Assembly: GCF_007474545.1 (NCBI RefSeq)
Contig: NZ_VKOG01000001.1
Location: 992,001 to 1,056,000 of the forward strand
DNA from: Chryseobacterium binzhouense
Lineage (GTDB): Bacteria; Bacteroidota; Bacteroidia; Flavobacteriales; Weeksellaceae
DNA: 64,000 nucleotides
Reading direction: 5' to 3'
Shown in pieces: positions 9,075 through 19,374 of the stretch. The position numbers and the translations under genes are program-made. A model generated the notes under the pieces. That model saw only the letters and a program-made list of their open reading frames with translations. It was not told the origin of the DNA and searched no databases. Each line of letters starts with the position of its first letter. Within the stretch, counting starts at the first letter, position 1.

Positions 9075-9593
9075 ATGGAACAAAAACTACTAATAGAATG
9101 CCAGCAAAACGACCGCAATGCACAGCGCAGGGTTTATGAAAAAATGGCGGGCAAACTATACTCGGTTTGCAAGCGCTACCTGAAGAATGATGAAGATGTT
9201 GAAGAGGTACTCGCAGATACTTTTTACAAAATTTTCACCAAACTCAATCAGCTGAATAATCATGAAATTTTCGAAGCCTGGGCAAAAAAAATTGCGGTGA
9301 ACGAATGTCTGCAAAAATTGAGAAGTATGAAAGCACTGAATGTTTCTTTGGAAGAAGAGTTTATCGAATCAGCGGATTCTCCTACAGACAGTATTTCTTT
9401 CGAGAAAGATATTTTGAGGCTTCTCAATTTTCTTCCGGAAGGTTGTCGGGCGATTTTTAATCTCTTTGCAATTGAAGGTTATCCACACAAAGAAATTGCA
9501 GCGATGCTTTCAATCAGTGAAGGAACTTCAAAATCCCAGCTGAATTTTGCGAGAAAAAAACTTCAGGAACTCTTGGTTAGTCACAACATTTAA
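9075..9593 (+). CDS. ECF-type RNA polymerase sigma factor
   Basis: The 172-residue protein has the two-domain layout of ECF sigma factors: region 2 at about residues 10-80 (YEKMAGKLYSVCKRYLKNDEDVEEVLADTFYKIF) and region 4 at about 115-165 (LPEGCRAIFNLFAIEGYPHKEIAAMLSISEGTSKSQLNFARKKL), the helix-turn-helix that reads the -35 region. It is followed after 10 nt by an anti-sigma-like membrane protein, so the two are very likely co-expressed. Its regulon may include the barrel and macroglobulin genes downstream, but no shared promoter motif was identified by eye. Confidence 0.92.
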   Translation: MEQKLLIECQQNDRNAQRRVYEKMAGKLYSVCKRYLKNDEDVEEVLADTFYKIFTKLNQLNNHEIFEAWAKKIAVNECLQKLRSMKALNVSLEEEFIESADSPTDSISFEKDILRLLNFLPEGCRAIFNLFAIEGYPHKEIAAMLSISEGTSKSQLNFARKKLQELLVSHNI

Positions 9594-9603
9594 ACTTTAT
9601 ACA

Positions 9604-11952
9604 ATGGAAAATAATCACGATATAGATAAAAAATTCAATAAGGCTTCTCAATCTCTGGAAGAGCCTGTTACTTTTCAGGGTTTTGATAAAGTCTGGGCTA
9701 AAGTTGAAGAAAAATTAGATAAAAAAGAAGACAAAAAGAGAATCCTTCCAATTTGGTTTCCTTACGGAATTGCTGCGAGTTTAATTATCGGTTTGGGTGC
9801 ATTTTATTTTATTAATAAAAATGATGTTTCTGAAATTGAAAAACCAGCTATCGTTCAAAATACAGTTTCACCTAAAACGAATTCAAACGTTCAGACGATT
9901 GACAGTACGGTGAAATCGAATATTGAAAAGGAAATTGATGCTCAAAAACAAGTACAAAATCCTGAAATTTTGGCTTATGAAGATGTAAATATTACAAATT
10001 TTGATAAAGGATTGAAATTAATAGAAAAAGGATTAATTACTACAAGCGAGAGCAAATATATTAAGCCGGCAGAAATTAATCTAATATTTCCTCAAGTTCC
10101 TGTAGATAGTGGTTTTAAAGAAAAGAATATTGAGGAGGTTTTAGTTTTAGGATATAGTAAAACGGCAACTAAATCTTCATCTGTTTCTTCTTCAGCAGGG
10201 AGCGGAAATCTTATTGCAAGTAATTCACCGAGTGCAGGATTTTTAAATTCTATAAGTGGAGCAGCTCCGGGAGTATCAATAAGTTCTTCTTCTGGAACTC
10301 CGGGATCTTCCAAAAATGCTATTCTTATTCGGGGAGCTGCATCAATTAAAGAACATTCAGAACCATTATATGTCATTAACGGTGAAATCGCAAGCGGCGA
10401 AAAATTTAAAAAACTAAAACCGGAAAATATCAAGGAAGTTTCAATAATTAAAGATGCGACAGCAACTTCTATTTATGGGAGCAGAGCCACAAACGGCGTT
10501 ATTGTAATCTCCACAAAAGATGCTTTAAAATCAAAGAATAAAAAGTTTAATAAATTTTTAAATAAACTTTTTCCCAAAGCTAAAACGGATATCACAGATA
10601 AGCCAGAAGAAAAAGAGGAAATACTCCCAAAAGCCGGACAATTGACTGCAGGAGAAGCAAACGATTTTTCTAAATGGAGCTATTGGATGGATATTGCTGT
10701 GCCTGCTTTAGAAAGATATAAAGACGAGTGGAAATTTTTTCCTGAAAAAAGAATATCTGTACAATTGGTAAATAAAAATAAAAAACCGATTGTTGGAGAA
10801 AAGCTAAAATTGATTAATGATAAAAATGAAGTTGTTTGGGAATCCATTACAGATAATCTAGGAAATGCAGAATTATGGATTAATCCAATGAATGGTTCTG
10901 ATCAGAATCCAGAAAAATATATTTTGAAAGATCAATCAAATAATATAATCAGTAATAATCCCAAAGAATTCAAAAACGGACAAAACCTTATAGTTCTTGA
11001 CAAACCATGTCTTGAAAAAAGAGCTTTAGATTTAGCTTTTGTAGTTGATGCAACAGGTTCGATGGGTGATGAAATTGCTTATTTACAGGCTGAACTTTTG
11101 GATGTTCTTAAAAAGGTTGAATCTAATCTTAAAAACACAGAGGTAAGATATGGTTCTGTTTTTTACAGAGATAGAGGGGATGAGTATGTAACCAAAAAAT
11201 TTGAATTTAATGATGATGCGAATCAGCTTTTGAAATTTATTAAAGAGCAGAATGCTTCAGGTGGAGGTGATTTCCCTGAAGCTGTGGTTGAAGCAATGGA
11301 TGTTTCTGTGAATGAGCTGAAATGGAGCAATGAAAATTCCACTAAAATCATGTTTTTAATTCTTGATGCACCTCCACATCAATCAGAAGAAAATATTGAT
11401 AAACTTTTTAAATATATAAAAACTGCTGCTCAGAAAGGAATTACCATCATTCCCCTTTCTGCAAGTGATATTGATAAACAGACAGAATATCTCATGAGGA
11501 CTTTTGCATTGATGACGAACGGCACTTATACATTTCTGACCAATCACAGTGGAATTGGGAACAATCATATTGAGCCTACTGTAGAATCTTATGAGGTAGA
11601 AAAGTTAAACGATCTCTTTCTAAGACTTATTTTACAACGGGCATCGCTCACCGAATGCGATAAAAATATCTCTCAGAATTATCTGAACAAAAAATTGGAA
11701 ACAGAAGCGGGTAGCCAGGTTGAGCATCAGATAAAAATTTTTCCGAATCCAACCAATGGTCCCGTAAACATTATTTCGGAACTACCAATACATGAATTAT
11801 TTGTTTATGATTTAGCAGGAAAAATTATCATGAACAAAGAGAAGCTTTCCGGAAAAAGTGCGATTGATATTTCATCTTATCCTCAAAGTGTTTATCTCAT
11901 TAGAGCCAAAACAGAAAAAGGATGGGAAACATTTAAAATCATTAAAAACTAA
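9604..11952 (+). CDS. Anti-sigma-like membrane protein with TonB-plug-like, vWA and T9SS sorting domains
   Basis: This 782-residue protein has an unusual mix of parts. Residues 1-48 are charged and resemble Bacteroidetes anti-sigma cytoplasmic segments; residues about 50-70 form one membrane helix. Residues about 177-305 look like a TonB-receptor plug: IEEVLVLGY, then ILIRGAASIKEHSEPLYVING, then SIIKDATATSIYGSRATNGVIVISTK. A beta domain (about 362-430) leads to a vWA domain starting near 475 with MIDAS-type DATGS (Asp482, Thr484, Ser486). The end, from about residue 710 (IFPNPTNG), is a T9SS type A sorting domain. ATG 9604 is chosen because an upstream frame from 9547 overlaps the sigma gene. 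A T9SS tail on a protein anchored by an uncleaved N-terminal helix is topologically odd. A perfect terminator follows. Confidence 0.85.
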   Translation: MENNHDIDKKFNKASQSLEEPVTFQGFDKVWAKVEEKLDKKEDKKRILPIWFPYGIAASLIIGLGAFYFINKNDVSEIEKPAIVQNTVSPKTNSNVQTIDSTVKSNIEKEIDAQKQVQNPEILAYEDVNITNFDKGLKLIEKGLITTSESKYIKPAEINLIFPQVPVDSGFKEKNIEEVLVLGYSKTATKSSSVSSSAGSGNLIASNSPSAGFLNSISGAAPGVSISSSSGTPGSSKNAILIRGAASIKEHSEPLYVINGEIASGEKFKKLKPENIKEVSIIKDATATSIYGSRATNGVIVISTKDALKSKNKKFNKFLNKLFPKAKTDITDKPEEKEEILPKAGQLTAGEANDFSKWSYWMDIAVPALERYKDEWKFFPEKRISVQLVNKNKKPIVGEKLKLINDKNEVVWESITDNLGNAELWINPMNGSDQNPEKYILKDQSNNIISNNPKEFKNGQNLIVLDKPCLEKRALDLAFVVDATGSMGDEIAYLQAELLDVLKKVESNLKNTEVRYGSVFYRDRGDEYVTKKFEFNDDANQLLKFIKEQNASGGGDFPEAVVEAMDVSVNELKWSNENSTKIMFLILDAPPHQSEENIDKLFKYIKTAAQKGITIIPLSASDIDKQTEYLMRTFALMTNGTYTFLTNHSGIGNNHIEPTVESYEVEKLNDLFLRLILQRASLTECDKNISQNYLNKKLETEAGSQVEHQIKIFPNPTNGPVNIISELPIHELFVYDLAGKIIMNKEKLSGKSAIDISSYPQSVYLIRAKTEKGWETFKIIKN

Positions 11953-12026: not shown

Positions 12027-14798
12027 ATGATGAAAAAAGTTTATCTGTTTTTACCTGTATTTATGGTTCAGTTTGTCTATGCGCAGGATTCTCAACGTTA
12101 TTTTTCGGGTACATTTTATAATGAAAAAAAGAAACCTCAGAATTTTCTAAAGGTTTTTAATAAGAATAAAGGAGTTTATGAATTAACCGATGAGAAGGGT
12201 TTTGCGATTATTCAGGCTGATGTAAGCGATACCTTGGTCTGGAATAACGGCAAAAATATCCAGGTGGTTTATAATGTCTATGAACTAAAAAATATTCTCG
12301 AAAGACAGATAAACAGGAAATATGTAGAAAGTATCAGTTCCAAAGATTATGACAATCTGATTAAAAAGCCTGAATCGGATAAATTCAGCGTTGAGAAATC
12401 TTATGATTCTATTAGGAATTATTCAGATTACAGTCTTTCTGCGGTCAGAAAACTGAAATTAAAATCAGATTCTACCTACAAACTTAAAAGGCAGCCTGAA
12501 AAATTTCTCGTTTTTAACGGGAGTTTCAGCAGTTCATTAGATATAAAAAACAGAAACCGTATTCCTAACACTCAGAACAGATATGTTCAGGGAAGATCAG
12601 AAAATGGGTTTTTAGTTTGGAAAGGTCCAGAGACAGGTGAAATGTTCAGTTTCGGACCGGATATTTCAACTTTAGGCTATAACGGACAGCCTTATGAATA
12701 TGATGTTAACGGACAATTAATCAATTTGTCCAACGGAATTTCTCCTGCAAAAGCTTACAATAACAATCTCTTTAGAACTACAGTTGGTTACAGCAATCAG
12801 CTGAACGTCAATGCAATTATTAGGAGTAACGGTTACAGCGAAAATGCAAGACTTTCTTTGAATATTGTACAGCAAAAAGATCAGATGTATTTTATAGATC
12901 AATTTGATATTGTAAATTCTTTTAAGGCGAAATTCAGCACTGAACTTTTAAAGTTTAAAATCAATGCAGGATTTAATTATGAAGAAAATAAAGCAACCAA
13001 TACCAACAGAATCGGACTTTTCAACAGGGTGTATCAAAATTCTCTTTTAACGCCGGTTTCATTTTCAAATCAGCAAAATGCTTTTTTAAGTAATGGCTTA
13101 CAGAGAAGTTACAGTCCAACTGCAGACAACCCTGAATTTCTTTTTAAGCAGGATAATAAATACAATTATTACGAAAATGTGCGACAACTTAATTTTGATG
13201 TAAGTAGACAATGGAGAGGTTTTAAACTCAATATCAGTCAGGCTTATGACGATCAGGAAATTGCGCATCGTGATGTTTATAAGATTTCAACAACTGGTTT
13301 TCAAAACGGATTATACAATATAAGAAATCAGAAAAATGAATTTTACAATTCAAATATTTCAGCGAATTATGATTTGCAGGGTGGAGATTTGACGAATAAA
13401 TTCAGTCTAAATCATATCTTAAATGACCGGAAAATCAATATTGGTCATAGTTTAGATACAAATTATTTTTATCAGCGAACTTCTCAGGATTATATTTTTA
13501 ATTATAATTTGGATTTCGAAGATTATAATAATATAGAATTCGGGGTTAATCTGGGAAACTCATTTTATATTTCAAACACTTCTATAAAAAACAATTATTG
13601 GCTGCCAAAAGTAAATGCTTACTTCACTTTTAAAGATGTTTTAGGTTGGAATAATTTGGATATTCAATTCATGGGAGCGCATACTCAGTTATCTACTGAA
13701 GCTGAAATTGCAAAATCATATTCATCATATACTACTACACAGTTTTCTGCACAAAACGCATATCAATATTTTCCCATTAAAGAAGTTCAGACCTTTAATA
13801 ATCTCTTGAATATTAATATCAAAGAGTCTAAAACAGGTTTTAAAATTATTTTATTTAATCCACGACTCAGTTTGATTGCAGAATATTTCAACCGAAAAAT
13901 TTACGATGATGTATTTCCTGTCTTTGAAAACCAGAATTTAGTCTTAAAAAATCTTGCAGACCATACATATGACGGGTATGAAGTTAATTTTAATTACGAT
14001 AACATCATTCGTAGTCAAAGTATCAGTCTAAGCAGTAAAGCCTCATTCTTTAAATACCGGGATATGGTGAATCGTGTTAAATCAGGATATAATAATCTGA
14101 TGATTTCAGGCTTCACTGATATTTATAAAACTTTGACTGAGGGTGAGGTTTTAGGTGCAGTTGCGGGAAGTTATTATGAAAGAAATACAGATGGAAATGT
14201 AATCATTGATAACCATGGTTATCCGGTAAAAGCTTCAGGAACGAAAATTATTGCAGACCCGACTCCGGATTTTGTGATGAAATTTTCCCATAGTCTCACC
14301 TATAAAATGTTTGCTTTGGATGTGAATTGGGAATGGAAAAAAGGTGGTCAAATCTGGAACGGAACTCAGGCTGTTCTTGATTATTATGGTCGTTCTCAAA
14401 CTTCGGCAGACGAAAGAAATATTAAAAATTATGTTTTCGAAGGGGTTAATTCTAATGGAAATGTCAATCAAATTCCTGTTGATTTTTATAATCCTAATTT
14501 GTCAGTCAACGAGAATCGCTGGACGAGATATGGTTTTCTTGGTGTTGCGGAATATTATGTGCAAAAATCTGATTATATAAGAATAAATGATATTGCACTT
14601 TCTGCCTATTTTGATGTTGGAAATTTGAGAAGAGCTTTGGGCGTGAGTTTTTATGTTAACAATATTTTTATTTGGCAGGCAAATACTGGTGTGGATTCTA
14701 ACCAGAATTTTTATGATTTTGATAACAGCAGAGGTTTGGATTTTTTCAATCTTCCGTCTTTTAAAACGTATGGTTGTACGGTTTCTTTTAAATTCTAA
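12027..14798 (+). CDS. SusC-like outer-membrane beta-barrel lacking a plug domain
   Basis: The 923-residue protein has a signal peptide ending VQFVYAQ, then an Ig-like carboxypeptidase-regulatory-like domain (about 25-110: SGTFYNEKKKPQNFLKVFNK...LTDEKGFAIIQAD), a short linker, and a long run of amphipathic strands to the C-terminal SFKTYGCTVSFKF, as in SusC/RagA barrels. SusC-type motifs such as QSADERNIKNYVFEGV and NRWTRYG are present late. The plug signatures (EVVVVGYG, RG.GS, EPLYVIDG, EVLKDASAAAIYG) that should lie between the N-terminal domain and the barrel are absent; a match occurs instead in each neighbouring protein. The next gene starts within 50 nt, so the two are probably one operon. 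No ligand can be inferred. Confidence 0.8.
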   Translation: MMKKVYLFLPVFMVQFVYAQDSQRYFSGTFYNEKKKPQNFLKVFNKNKGVYELTDEKGFAIIQADVSDTLVWNNGKNIQVVYNVYELKNILERQINRKYVESISSKDYDNLIKKPESDKFSVEKSYDSIRNYSDYSLSAVRKLKLKSDSTYKLKRQPEKFLVFNGSFSSSLDIKNRNRIPNTQNRYVQGRSENGFLVWKGPETGEMFSFGPDISTLGYNGQPYEYDVNGQLINLSNGISPAKAYNNNLFRTTVGYSNQLNVNAIIRSNGYSENARLSLNIVQQKDQMYFIDQFDIVNSFKAKFSTELLKFKINAGFNYEENKATNTNRIGLFNRVYQNSLLTPVSFSNQQNAFLSNGLQRSYSPTADNPEFLFKQDNKYNYYENVRQLNFDVSRQWRGFKLNISQAYDDQEIAHRDVYKISTTGFQNGLYNIRNQKNEFYNSNISANYDLQGGDLTNKFSLNHILNDRKINIGHSLDTNYFYQRTSQDYIFNYNLDFEDYNNIEFGVNLGNSFYISNTSIKNNYWLPKVNAYFTFKDVLGWNNLDIQFMGAHTQLSTEAEIAKSYSSYTTTQFSAQNAYQYFPIKEVQTFNNLLNINIKESKTGFKIILFNPRLSLIAEYFNRKIYDDVFPVFENQNLVLKNLADHTYDGYEVNFNYDNIIRSQSISLSSKASFFKYRDMVNRVKSGYNNLMISGFTDIYKTLTEGEVLGAVAGSYYERNTDGNVIIDNHGYPVKASGTKIIADPTPDFVMKFSHSLTYKMFALDVNWEWKKGGQIWNGTQAVLDYYGRSQTSADERNIKNYVFEGVNSNGNVNQIPVDFYNPNLSVNENRWTRYGFLGVAEYYVQKSDYIRINDIALSAYFDVGNLRRALGVSFYVNNIFIWQANTGVDSNQNFYDFDNSRGLDFFNLPSFKTYGCTVSFKF

Positions 14799-14847
14799 TT
14801 GAATGTCACCAAAACCAAAAGTATTTTCAAACTTAAAACGAAATTCA

Positions 14848-17800
14848 ATGAGATTCAATATTTTATCTTACATAATCCCTGTTTTAATTCTACTTTCAAG
14901 TCCTTTTTGTAAAGCGCAAAATAAATTCAGCGACTTCAAAAAGGAAAAAACATACATACAGACCAACCATGTTTTTTACAAACCGGGAGAGGAAATGTAT
15001 TTTAAAATTTATATTGTTCAGGCAGAAAACCAACTTCCGACAGAGCAATCTAAAGTTGTCAATTTTGAAATTGTCGATCCTAGCGGAACGGTGGTGAAAA
15101 AATCTAAGTATGAAATTAAAAATGGTCATGCAGAAGGATATTTCTATTTCGATAATGACATGAAAGGCGGAATTTACAAGGTAAGAGCTTTTACAGCCTG
15201 GATGCAGAATGAAGCTGGAAAAAATGTTTTTGAAAAAGAAATTACACTTCAGAAAATTGTTTCTCCACGAATTTTAATGAAACTTGATTTTCCTAAAAAA
15301 GGTTATGGAGCCGGAGATGAGGTTTTGGCAGATTTTTCAATAAGAAGTTTAAGCAATCTCCCGATTCCATTTTACGAGGCTAATTTTACAGTAATGCATC
15401 AAGGCGAAAAAATTACTGAAGGTAATTTAATTACTGATAAAGAAGGAAAATACTTGTTGAAATTTCAGCTTCCTGACGTTTTGAAATCTCCTGACGCTCT
15501 TTTGAATATTAAAGTTAATTTTGACGGTTTCACAGAATCTATTTCCAGAAATATTCCAATAGTTTTAAATAATCTTGATTTAAAATTTATGCCTGAAGGC
15601 GGAACTTTTATCAATGGAATCGAACAAAACATCGCTTTTAAAGTTTTGGATGAATTTGAAAAGCCTGTAGACGCTGTTTTAGGGATTTATAACCAGAATA
15701 ATCAGAAAATTTCTGAAGTTTCAGCCTACAATTTCGGGATGGGAAGCTTTTATTTAACTCCAAAAAATAGTGAAACGTATTATGCAAAAATTTTAAAACC
15801 GGAGAATATCAGTCAGATTTATCAGCTTCCTGCCGCAAAAGATGATGGAATTGTTTTTAATGCTAAAAAAGAAAATCAAATTATCCGTTTGATCGTCAAC
15901 TCGACCTCCGAAAGAAACATTTTAATCTCCGGGAATTTTCGTGAGAAAGAAATTTACACTAAAAACTTAAGCTTAAAAAAGGGCTTAAATCAAATTGATA
16001 TTTCTGAAAAAGAATTCCCAATCGGAATCTGCAGGTTTACGATTTCAGAGAATAATATACCACTTGCCGAAAGAATTGTTTTTACGAATGAAAGTAAGCA
16101 GATGAAAGTAAAGGTTACTCCGGTCAAGAAAAATTATTTACCGAGAGAAAAAGCGATTGTTAATATTGAAACTTCCGATGAAAATAACAATCCAATCCCT
16201 GCAAATCTTGCCATATCAGTGATTGACGATAAATTGTGGACTTATGCAGATGATAAACAAAATCATATTCTGTCATGGCTTTTAATGGATTCTGAATTGC
16301 GAGGGAAAATTGAAAGACCTCAATTTTATTTTGATAAAAAAGAAGAAAAAGCGGTAAAAAGTTTGTACTTGGTTATGTTAACAAACGGTTATCGATACTT
16401 TGAAATGAATTCTGAAGTGAAAAAGACAGGAAACTACAAATATCTTCCTGAAAAGAAAAACCCGATTTACGGCATCGTTGAAGATGAAAATAAAAAGCCT
16501 GTGAAAGCAGAAGTTTATTTGGTCAGCAGTAATTCCAAAATAAAAAAACAGATTACTTCCGAAAACGGATTGTTTTATTTTTCAGATTTGAATCGGAATG
16601 AATATTATTTTGTTATTGCAAAATCTGCAGATCAAAAACAGAAAGTAAAAGTGAGAATGTTATCTTATAAACTCAATATAAATCCTTTAGTAAAGCAATC
16701 TTTAGAAAATATTGATGTAGATGAGATTATTAAAGAAGCAGAGATTAACGAGAAAAAGCCTTCAATTTCTCAAGAAATAGAAGGTTTGCGGAAAACTTTA
16801 CCTTCAGTGAATTCTAAATCGGATACAATTAATAAAGAACAAAAAATTGAGGAAGTTGTAGTTGTCGGTTACAAAACGGTAAAAAAAAGTGTAGCAACTT
16901 CATCAATTGTGAATTTAAACCAACGACCGAACTCAAATGTTCTCAATATAGCTCAAGGGCAATTAGCTGGAGTCAATATTTCTACAGGAACAGGGCAACC
17001 AGGTACAACACCGTCAATTGTTGTAAGAGGACTTGGTTCTTTAAGTGGAAATACTGAGCCTTTATATGTAATTGATGGTTTTCCAACAAATACTAATGCT
17101 TTTAGAATCCTAAATCCGAACGATATCAATTCGATGGAAGTTTTGAAAGATGCAGTAGCCACATCAGTCTTTGGTAACCGCGGCTCAAACGGAGTAATCA
17201 TCATAAACACAAAAAAAGACAGAAACTCAAACCTAAAATTCAATATCACGCCCCAAAGTTATTTTGCGGTAAAAAATATTCCAAATGACAGTTTAGTCAG
17301 TTATGAATATTCACGGCAGTTTTCATATCCTGTTTATGAGTCAACCAATACCGGATATCGTCATGATTACAGGGAAACTTTATATTGGAATCCAGTTGTT
17401 GAAACTGATAAAACCGGAAAAGCTCAGATTGAATTTTATCAGTCTGATGCCAATTCAGCTTTCAGAATTATGACGGAAGGAATTTCCGCAAACGGATTAG
17501 TCGGAAGAGACGAAACGACTTATGCTGCGCAAAGTTTAATTTCCATTGATGCTAAAATTCCGCAATATTTAACACGGACAGACCAAATGACAGTTCCTGT
17601 TGTTGTCAAAAATAATTCTTCGGAAATCCGAACTTTGAAAATGGATGTGATCGTTCCTAATAATATTAAATTGATGAAAGCTGACAGTTTAATTACTTTA
17701 AAACCTTTGGAATCCGGAAGATTATTTGTAACCATGCAGACCGATAAACTGATTAATTCTAATATTCAATTTGCTGTAAAGTCTGGAGAATCCAGAGAAA

Positions 17801-19374
17801 CAATGATTTTGCCTTTGAAAGTTGAGGAAAAAGGTTTTCCGTATCATTTTTCAATAATAAATAATAAAAATGAAAATTTTAAAATTAATATTCCGGAATA
17901 TATCAACGGAAGTTTTGTGTCGTCTTATTACGTTTATGAAAATTCGGCATTGCAGATGTTTGAAGATTTAGAAAGAATAAAGCAAGAACCTTACGGATGT
18001 TTTGAGCAGCTCTCATCAACGGTGTATCCTAATATTTTTATTCTGGATTATTTGAAGTCTACGAAAAAAATTGATCCGAATACTGAACTTAACGTTATTA
18101 AAAATATGAAAAAAGGATATCAGAAAATGCTATCCTATAAAAATAAAGATGGCGGTTTTTCATATTTTGGAGGTAATGAATCTGATGTTGCGTTGTCTGC
18201 ATTTGCTTTGTTAGAATTCAGAGATTTGAAAAAATATGTGAATGTAGATACAAAATTAATTCAGAATTTAAGTTCATTTATTTTATCAAAAAAGAATGCA
18301 AACGGACTTTTTGAAGTGAGAAAAAGCTACGAAATGACAACTGTCTATTCCGAGTATTCATGGTCGAGAAATATGTATGTTTTGTACGCGCTTTCTAAAC
18401 TCGGATTTAAAAATGAACTGCTTCAAAACTATGATTACAGCTTAAAAAGAGTTTTAGCAACAAAAGATTCATATCAATTGGCTTTGATGGCAAATACAGC
18501 AAAAAGTCTCGGAAAAAATGAAGATTATACTCATCTCATTGAAATTCTTAATAAACAGTATGCTGATAAAAATATAAACGTAAAAACTACTTTCACAGGT
18601 TCAGCAGGGATTTCAGCCAATGCAGAAACGCTTTCGCTTTATATGATAGCATTGCAGAAAAATGAGAAAAATAATCAGCTGAAAATCGCTGAAGTTGCGG
18701 ATGAATTGATTAATTATAATGGTTATTACGGCTTTGGTTCAACTCAGGCAACATCTTTGGCATTAGAATCATTATCCGATTTCTTTGCTAAAAATGAGAA
18801 GCTCTACGGAACTGATCAACCTACTATTAAGGTAAATAATGTAGTTGTTTCAGATAAAAACAACAGCTTTGCATCAGCTTTCAGAAAAGGAGAAAATGAT
18901 TTGAAAGTTGACTATAGCTATGAAAAAGGTTTACCATACAAATTAGATTATCAATATTATACTTTAGAAGCTCCAAAGAGTGAAAATATTCCGATAATCT
19001 TAGAGACAAAGCTGAAATCTCAGGTTTCTAAAGTAGGAGAGACCAACAGAATGACAGTGACGATAAAAAATAAAATCAATAGTCAATTGCCGATGACAAC
19101 AGCAAAAATCGGAATTCCTGCAGGCTTAACTCTTCAAAATGCTTTGATGAAAGATTTAATTGATAAAAAGCAGGTTTCCTATTACGAAATTTTTGATAAT
19201 TATCTTGTTTTGTATTGGGAACATTTCGATAGCAATGAAACGAAAACAATTAATCTTGATTTAAAGGTAGAATTTGCTGGAGAATATACAGGAAAAGCAA
19301 GTAATGTATATCTTTACTACATGCCGGAATCTAAGTTTTGGAATGAAGGAATCAAGGCGGTAATATATCCGTAA
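14848..19374 (+). CDS. Alpha-2-macroglobulin family protein with embedded TonB-plug domain
   Basis: The protein is 1508 residues from ATG 14848, which gives a clean signal peptide (MRFNILSYIIPVLILL...CKAQ); ATG 14803 in the same frame adds 15 residues. MG-type beta domains occupy the first half, including YIQTNHVFYKPGEEMYFKIYI. A carboxypeptidase-regulatory domain (about 545-600) and a complete TonB-plug sequence (about 667-790: EEVVVVGYKTVKKS, VVRGLGSLSGNTEPLYVIDG, MEVLKDAVATSVFGNRGSNGVIIINTK) are inserted before the MG10/A2M region. The thioester domain follows with PYGCFEQ (Cys1051, Gln1054), so the thioester pair is intact. There is no lipobox, unlike many bacterial macroglobulins. Macroglobulins trap proteases through the thioester; outer-membrane docking through the plug is my inference. 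Confidence 0.88.
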   Translation: MRFNILSYIIPVLILLSSPFCKAQNKFSDFKKEKTYIQTNHVFYKPGEEMYFKIYIVQAENQLPTEQSKVVNFEIVDPSGTVVKKSKYEIKNGHAEGYFYFDNDMKGGIYKVRAFTAWMQNEAGKNVFEKEITLQKIVSPRILMKLDFPKKGYGAGDEVLADFSIRSLSNLPIPFYEANFTVMHQGEKITEGNLITDKEGKYLLKFQLPDVLKSPDALLNIKVNFDGFTESISRNIPIVLNNLDLKFMPEGGTFINGIEQNIAFKVLDEFEKPVDAVLGIYNQNNQKISEVSAYNFGMGSFYLTPKNSETYYAKILKPENISQIYQLPAAKDDGIVFNAKKENQIIRLIVNSTSERNILISGNFREKEIYTKNLSLKKGLNQIDISEKEFPIGICRFTISENNIPLAERIVFTNESKQMKVKVTPVKKNYLPREKAIVNIETSDENNNPIPANLAISVIDDKLWTYADDKQNHILSWLLMDSELRGKIERPQFYFDKKEEKAVKSLYLVMLTNGYRYFEMNSEVKKTGNYKYLPEKKNPIYGIVEDENKKPVKAEVYLVSSNSKIKKQITSENGLFYFSDLNRNEYYFVIAKSADQKQKVKVRMLSYKLNINPLVKQSLENIDVDEIIKEAEINEKKPSISQEIEGLRKTLPSVNSKSDTINKEQKIEEVVVVGYKTVKKSVATSSIVNLNQRPNSNVLNIAQGQLAGVNISTGTGQPGTTPSIVVRGLGSLSGNTEPLYVIDGFPTNTNAFRILNPNDINSMEVLKDAVATSVFGNRGSNGVIIINTKKDRNSNLKFNITPQSYFAVKNIPNDSLVSYEYSRQFSYPVYESTNTGYRHDYRETLYWNPVVETDKTGKAQIEFYQSDANSAFRIMTEGISANGLVGRDETTYAAQSLISIDAKIPQYLTRTDQMTVPVVVKNNSSEIRTLKMDVIVPNNIKLMKADSLITLKPLESGRLFVTMQTDKLINSNIQFAVKSGESRETMILPLKVEEKGFPYHFSIINNKNENFKINIPEYINGSFVSSYYVYENSALQMFEDLERIKQEPYGCFEQLSSTVYPNIFILDYLKSTKKIDPNTELNVIKNMKKGYQKMLSYKNKDGGFSYFGGNESDVALSAFALLEFRDLKKYVNVDTKLIQNLSSFILSKKNANGLFEVRKSYEMTTVYSEYSWSRNMYVLYALSKLGFKNELLQNYDYSLKRVLATKDSYQLALMANTAKSLGKNEDYTHLIEILNKQYADKNINVKTTFTGSAGISANAETLSLYMIALQKNEKNNQLKIAEVADELINYNGYYGFGSTQATSLALESLSDFFAKNEKLYGTDQPTIKVNNVVVSDKNNSFASAFRKGENDLKVDYSYEKGLPYKLDYQYYTLEAPKSENIPIILETKLKSQVSKVGETNRMTVTIKNKINSQLPMTTAKIGIPAGLTLQNALMKDLIDKKQVSYYEIFDNYLVLYWEHFDSNETKTINLDLKVEFAGEYTGKASNVYLYYMPESKFWNEGIKAVIYP

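Follow-up and report, generated by a model that had tools for sequence, protein, structure and literature searches.

The window analysed in this study is the whole stretch of 64,000 nucleotides from Chryseobacterium binzhouense (contig NZ_VKOG01000001.1, positions 992,001 to 1,056,000), and it contains a succession of four genes on the + strand, encoding an ECF sigma factor, an anti-sigma-like plug protein, a barrel and an alpha-2-macroglobulin (A2M). These genes and the features within them, in positions of the window, are as follows:

9075..9593, + strand: ECF sigma factor gene, the first of the cluster (Pfam Sigma70_r2, Sigma70_r4_2)
9604..11952, + strand: second plug-bearing (anti-sigma-like) protein (Pfam Plug, VWA, Por_Secre_tail; TIGR04056 positions 75-210)
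12027..14798, + strand: predicted plugless SusC/RagA-type barrel protein, 923 aa, with signal peptide, N-terminal extension and barrel (TIGR04056 214-981)
12474..14795, + strand: barrel region, residues 150-923, aligning to the entire post-plug part of SusC BT_2264
14848..19374, + strand: predicted A2M with a SusC-type plug, 1508 aa (MG2, Plug, A2M and TED above Pfam cut-offs)
14950..15228, + strand: MG2 domain, A2M residues 35-127 (PF01835, E 1e-8)
16465..16722, + strand: CarboxypepD_reg-like domain before the A2M plug, about residues 540-625, placed by alignment
16846..16872, + strand: Ton-box-like motif IEEVVVVGY, A2M residues 667-675
16885..17196, + strand: TonB-dependent receptor plug domain, A2M residues 680-783 (PF07715, E 2.8e-13)
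17377..17634, + strand: A2M domain downstream of the plug, residues 844-929 (PF00207, E 2.2e-8)
17956..18780, + strand: thioester domain TED, A2M residues 1037-1311 (PF07678, E 3e-24)
17989..18009, + strand: thioester motif PYGCFEQ, starting at A2M residue 1048, inside TED

The A2M open reading frame has a further in-frame ATG upstream, at 14803, and the closest named match to its thioester part, at 90%, is in C. echinoideorum (among the best 80 of 127 relatives). No SusD family member was matched beside the barrel when six window genes were scanned with Pfam profiles, and TonB_C has four matches in the same genome, three of them above the cut-off.

Against TIGR04056 (SusC/RagA), the window barrel covers only model positions 214-981, scoring 69 bits (E 2.8e-19), which is far under the family cut-off of 368 bits, and it matches no Pfam family, Plug included, even at E up to 1. 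In a profile of 40 rows of barrel orthologues, positions 150-922 align with residues 161-984 of SusC BT_2264 and positions 22-94 with a solved SusC N-terminal extension (E 0.0015). Pfam Plug was absent from all 40 barrel ORFs examined (39 genes, one split in two) and from six further barrels, L204 in that set being a repeat of L143. Neither the Ton-box pattern VVVxGY nor the plug motifs quoted in the sequence-only reading has a match in the window barrel, which may still carry a divergent Ton box. In the barrel proteins of the Chitinophagaceae, only a signal peptide and some 58 residues precede the barrel, too little space for a plug. The gene product is, by these comparisons, predicted to be a SusC-type outer-membrane barrel without a plug of its own.

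Alpha-2-macroglobulin is related to the protease traps of animal immunity. The product of the gene downstream of the barrel is predicted to be a thioester A2M, as MG, A2M and TED domains are present together with the CxEQ motif; the C-F-E-Q columns of the thioester are invariant in 36/36 aligned rows, and bMG10 in the window copy matches under the cut-off. This protein supplies TIGR04056 model positions 74-258 (Ton box and plug), so that the two halves of the model are complementary between barrel and A2M, both in the window and in the Chitinophagaceae. Its residues 662-813 align with RagA 75-232 and its residues 663-912 with BT_2264 19-291, and the quoted plug motifs lie within residues 667-788. 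Across the family, Pfam Plug was found in 40/40 A2M mid-sections, a set from which L147 and L148 were excluded for having no plug by the local profile (they were scanned whole instead), and CarboxypepD_reg in 29 of the 40, the window copy having no match. The Ton-box-like stretch ahead of the plug is also kept, V146 being invariant and E145 conserved in at least 90% (alignment A5).

The sequence-only reading had claimed a barrel gene without plug hallmarks and an A2M with a full plug sequence, and both statements are borne out, the former by profile searches that find no Plug in the window barrel or in those of its relatives, the latter by PF07715 (E 2.8e-13) and TIGR04056 74-258. Its further claim, that the plug stands in place of a membrane anchor, needs to be corrected: the plug is internal, and the ordinary signal peptide of the window A2M lacks a lipobox. 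A pattern search of 75 A2Ms gave no convincing lipobox (one spurious match lies in an N-terminal reading-frame extension), and a Pfam scan found no T9SS tail in the A2M. The domain order, in which the CarboxypepD_reg-like domain, a linker and the plug precede PF00207, where a bait region is expected, suggests instead that the plug occupies about the equivalent place of the A2M bait region.

A scan of the whole genome (3.6 Mb) with TIGR04056 gave 17 matches in total. The top plug-only matches are the A2M (159 bits) and the protein upstream of the barrel (128 bits), and these two lie here, together with the sole long plugless barrel match of the genome (63 bits), within 7.3 kb, a clustering beyond chance. 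Six weaker partial matches (25-50 bits) occur elsewhere in the genome, and one SusC gene (C3) lies in two frames.

The pairing of the two genes was followed in 77 named loci, drawn from the best 80 of 127 relatives, and in a survey of 149 Chryseobacterium-type genomes queried with the barrel block and a thioester-domain profile; the two sets share many genomes, so their counts are not additive. By the local plug profile, the A2M carries a plug in 77/77 named loci. A plugless barrel stands directly upstream on the same strand in 75 of them (broken in L191, L220 and L226), and in the remaining two, L198 and L222, the sequence begins inside or just before the A2M. The genus survey found both genes in 77 genomes, the barrel only in 0, the A2M only in 4 and neither in 68 (Fisher p 4e-38, relatedness ignored). 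The four A2M-only genomes comprise one cut at a contig start (G021) and three with tails whose open frames run to 71-94 aa (G001, G012, G848); G001 retains fragments of both genes, which indicates that the two members of the pair can disappear together. In all 77 genomes with both genes these share contig and strand, their matched parts being 3.2-4.4 kb apart, and frames are broken in G003, G786, G810 and G832. Intact copies of barrel and A2M were thus never found apart in the 77 named loci or the 149 genomes, in agreement with the gene-pair association expected from the sequence-only reading.

Beyond Chryseobacterium, the pair occurs in Cloacibacterium, Epilithonimonas, Chitinophaga, Niastella and several MAGs, and the bacteria that carry it live in soil and water. 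A related thioester domain (E up to 1e-20) was present in 26/395 genomes sampled over the order and in 6/395 sampled over the phylum. The split of barrel and plug is a real and conserved observation and no artefact. It has been considered whether the arrangement might be a functionless and decaying remnant of a SusC gene that recombination had divided, for which the broken copies (L105, L191, L220, L226, G786, G810, G832) could be cited. As 72 of the 75 visible named-locus barrels, from Chryseobacterium to Chitinophaga, are a single open frame, and the thioester columns are invariant, this is extremely improbable.

A second alternative is that the A2M plug serves by itself as a docking or TonB-binding module outside the barrel, and that something else links the two genes, for instance shared regulation or assembly. 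Of the 21 loci that do not belong to the main genus set (L203, L204, L207-L225), all 21 have the A2M and 20 the barrel, whereas the next commonest gene reaches 8; such strict pairing, where no other gene is common to all, argues against a docking module. So do the two related A2Ms that are free of a plug, those of G540 (L147) and G654 (L148), which have no barrel match in the stretches read (19.5 and 13.1 kb) and in which Pfam Plug is absent when they are scanned whole. In L147, two CarboxypepD_reg domains stand between the MG part and PF00207, in place of the CarboxypepD_reg-like domain and plug. These loci form a natural control, though two cases are few. The short MG protein of G037 (L149), also considered as a plug carrier, has no Plug by Pfam.

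Covariation of plug and barrel was measured as a partial rank correlation of inter-locus distances, with the remainder of the A2M partialled out. Broken (L105, L191, L220, L226) and truncated (L107, L198, L222) loci were excluded, as were those without a plug or of another type (L147, L148, L149), and identical A2M thioester parts were collapsed, reducing 110 loci to 92. Over all 92 loci the plug-barrel value was 0.57, with other A2M segments reaching up to 0.50; for the 68 genus loci the values were 0.75 and up to 0.45, and for the 24 loci outside the genus the plug-barrel value of 0.34 lay beneath several other segments (up to 0.74). In the clade of the window, whose 17 loci were chosen by plug and barrel clustering, the value was 0.76 and nine other A2M segments reached at most 0.13 (0/500 permutations), whereas in the 51-locus main genus group it was 0.15, with other segments at 0.00-0.49 (9/500 permutations). 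The 17 loci are monophyletic in a plug-free A2M tree (support 1.0) and, with one extra locus, also in the sigma-factor tree. Plug-barrel covariation is strong in the window clade, where the plug tracks the adjacent barrel more closely than the remainder of its own chain, and not special elsewhere, and given the 0.15 in the 51-locus group and the 0.34 outside the genus, the 0.75 for the 68 loci leans on one clade and on the two-clade split. This result cuts both ways for the docking module, as the window clade speaks against it and the 51 of 68 genus loci without special covariation speak for it.

Individual comparisons illustrate both aspects. Set against L134, the A2Ms of L154 and L139 are mostly 80-100% identical with a plug of only 24-72%, and their barrels are mostly 80-100% identical with residues about 400-680 at only 37-75%; the diverged plug and barrel block form two cassettes with conserved sequence between them, and the control pair L155 and L134 is mostly 90-100% identical throughout. 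An earlier view of L139 and L154 as independent double replacements was withdrawn, since their barrel blocks are 73% alike and may derive from one event. Between the window and L136, plug bins are 38-78% and barrel bins 68-95% identical with no diverged block, so even in the window clade divergence of a plug need not be accompanied by a corresponding block in the barrel. At 63%, the closest relative of the L154 plug is that of a SusC-length frame (1001 aa) in the genome that matches L154 fully, which suggests that plugs are exchangeable and that the fit need not be tight. A donor SusC as the source of both plug and barrel block was not supported; the L154 barrel block has matches in 77/149 genomes, each time in a frame just upstream of the A2M. 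In a tree of 206 plugs, A2M, anti-sigma and SusC plugs fall mostly in separate groups (8 label changes, compared with an average of 81 after shuffling).

The protein at 9604-11952, which the sequence-only reading left outside its span, is a second possible source of a plug for the barrel. It consists of an N-terminal part, a TM helix (9754-9813), a Ton-box-like motif and plug (about 10129-10515), vWA and a T9SS C-terminal tail. It has no match to any anti-sigma family in Pfam or NCBIfam, and is called anti-sigma-like for its position after the ECF sigma gene and its layout. The layout resembles that of the Dma anti-sigma factors of Bacteroides, described as ending in a beta-barrel (PMC13088901), in that the gene follows a sigma gene and its product has a short N-terminal segment and a single TM helix, connected by a linker to a domain of outer-membrane type; the difference is that the domain here is a plug, often with vWA domains and in the window copy with a T9SS tail, and that the protein has no C-terminal beta-barrel. 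Under this explanation the anti-sigma-like plug would close the barrel and let an anti-sigma factor of the inner membrane sense the outer membrane, with a secondary or competing role left for the A2M plug. A SusC-type plug protein directly upstream of the barrel in the window is compatible with this, as is the description of Dma as anti-sigma factors that span both membranes (PMC13088901). The distribution of the genes argues otherwise. The N-terminal part of the protein has no match in 16/16 loci L210-L225 (22 kb each; L222 14.7 kb), where the A2M is retained in 16/16 and the barrel in 15/16, and within the same genus the sigma gene and the anti-sigma-like protein stand in loci both with and without the barrel/A2M pair. 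Its plug, moreover, does not covary with the barrel (partial -0.09 over the 68 loci, against 0.75 for the A2M plug). Closure of the barrel by this protein is accordingly regarded as very unlikely. Its orphan plug also occurs in 15/15 loci selected for having no barrel match (L109-L123), which counts further against this explanation; as these plugs have no adjacent plugless barrel, an orphan plug alone is no proof of a barrel partner, and to that extent they favour the docking module, which on balance is still unlikely.

The most likely reading is that the A2M plugs the barrel in trans. This had been the simplest idea of the sequence-only reading, and it is supported by co-occurrence, by the complementary model halves and by covariation in the window clade, but not by covariation elsewhere, which is not special. 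Judged from the sequences, the A2M plug is probably seated in the neighbouring barrel; that barrel and A2M together make a natural two-chain, TonB-dependent outer-membrane gate is held with moderate confidence, and TonB gating of the two-chain pore is only slightly favoured. In such a gate, the barrel would be a complete SusC-type pore with its plug supplied by a separate chain, and a periplasmic A2M would insert its plug into the barrel from below. In known structures of TonB-dependent transporters both ends of the plug point to the periplasm, and a plug flanked by macroglobulin domains would accordingly imply a periplasmic A2M body. Once seated, the plug would keep the A2M against the outer membrane's inner face and shut the pore, with the body, including the thioester, staying in the periplasm beneath it. 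TonB would then pull the Ton box of the A2M, opening the pore and disturbing the A2M at its bait-region position, and the opening of the gate or the cutting of the plug linkers could ready the thioester for binding incoming material. That the trap is triggered by displacement or cleavage of the plug is a tentative proposal and rather doubtful. Slightly more doubtful is the specific form in which the plug itself is the bait, and its displacement or cleavage by TonB, a protease or a protein toxin fires the thioester, so that the intruder is bound covalently at its passage.

It may also be that the seated plug is an anchor only, which tethers the A2M to the outer membrane without transport or use of TonB. 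This would suit an A2M without a lipobox and the finding of no SusD among the six scanned window genes, and there is a parallel in the E. coli A2M, described as held by an inner-membrane anchor (PMC4498604). Retention of the Ton-box-like stretch and of an entire barrel is not readily explained by a tether, and an anchor without gating is considered rather unlikely.

As described in the literature, a TonB-dependent transporter is a single chain that includes both the barrel and the plug lodged in it, and it is debated whether this plug comes out during transport (PMC11658791). The two-chain gate proposed here, being natural, would make this question directly testable, because exit and return of the plug could be tracked as the association of two proteins. 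If the proposal is true, bacterial A2Ms would also be permanently stationed at an outer-membrane pore and possibly have a trigger other than a free bait loop; a plug carried by a relative of protease traps suggests that the trap doubles as a gate of the pore. Among the matches listed for the open PMC literature, considered at the level of abstract openings, there was no paper on a macroglobulin joined to a TonB plug, nor on a SusC barrel that lacks a plug and receives one in trans.

Compared with the SusC/RagA transporters (TIGR04056; BT_2264, Bt1763, RagA), the barrel is homologous over the whole post-plug part and the Ton box and plug are of the same type, with the order of extension, Ton box and plug preserved within the A2M; here, in contrast, plug and Ton box are on another polypeptide, and no SusD was found in the six window genes. 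The cork and barrel of FhuA have reportedly been produced as separate chains in the laboratory, and that experiment shares with this locus the separation of plug and barrel, but was engineered from a one-chain protein, whereas the arrangement here is natural and the plug lies within another protein. The IEEVVVVGY of the A2M resembles the Ton box DEVVVTG of Bt1763, reported to be required for growth on levan (PMC7782687). With regard to the bacterial A2Ms, a role has been suggested and not established, and the bait region of E. coli ECAM (YfhM) is described as a disordered loop whose cleavage frees the thioester arm (PMC4498604). The window protein shares with ECAM the MG, A2M and thioester domains, CxEQ and a signal peptide; it differs in having no lipobox and in that a TonB plug, preceded by a CarboxypepD_reg-like domain, is carried about where the bait region is inferred to lie.

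The second plug-bearing product of the window, called anti-sigma-like from its place after the ECF sigma gene and from its layout, is as follows:

9604-11952, + strand, anti-sigma-like protein with a TM helix and a SusC-type plug

The C-terminal part of this protein varies by species, consisting of a vWA domain with a T9SS tail or of a YfbK-type vWA domain, or else the protein ends with the plug. No covariation with the plugless SusC-like barrel was found for its plug. At a locus from a different genus (L145:7623-8093, genome G196), a 156-aa ORF lies directly 5' of the barrel. Two of its stretches match Plug, and the ORF could be a variant of this second plug protein.

The alpha-2-macroglobulin (A2M) has been lost at three loci of relatives (L108, G012:C45 and G848:C8), where just its C-terminal tail is left, in open frames of 71–94 aa; these tails are deletion scars. 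In one of the three cases, genome G001, the barrel's first 89 residues are retained as well. The barrel of genome G003 is split by a 295-aa ORF on the opposite strand (L105:9380-10267), and the adjoining A2M is a single open frame. In genome G007, a 758-aa SusC-like barrel ORF (L124:7018-9294), followed by a SusD gene, had no Pfam match, and could be a normal SusC whose reading frame is broken.

The A2M plug of Chryseobacterium caseinilyticum (L154:9470-9997) shares 63% identity with the plug of a 1001-aa frame, the length of a SusC, elsewhere in its own genome (G821:C22), whereas the nearest other A2M plug among the matches listed shares 51%. It appears from these identities that plugs are exchanged between SusC genes and the A2M.
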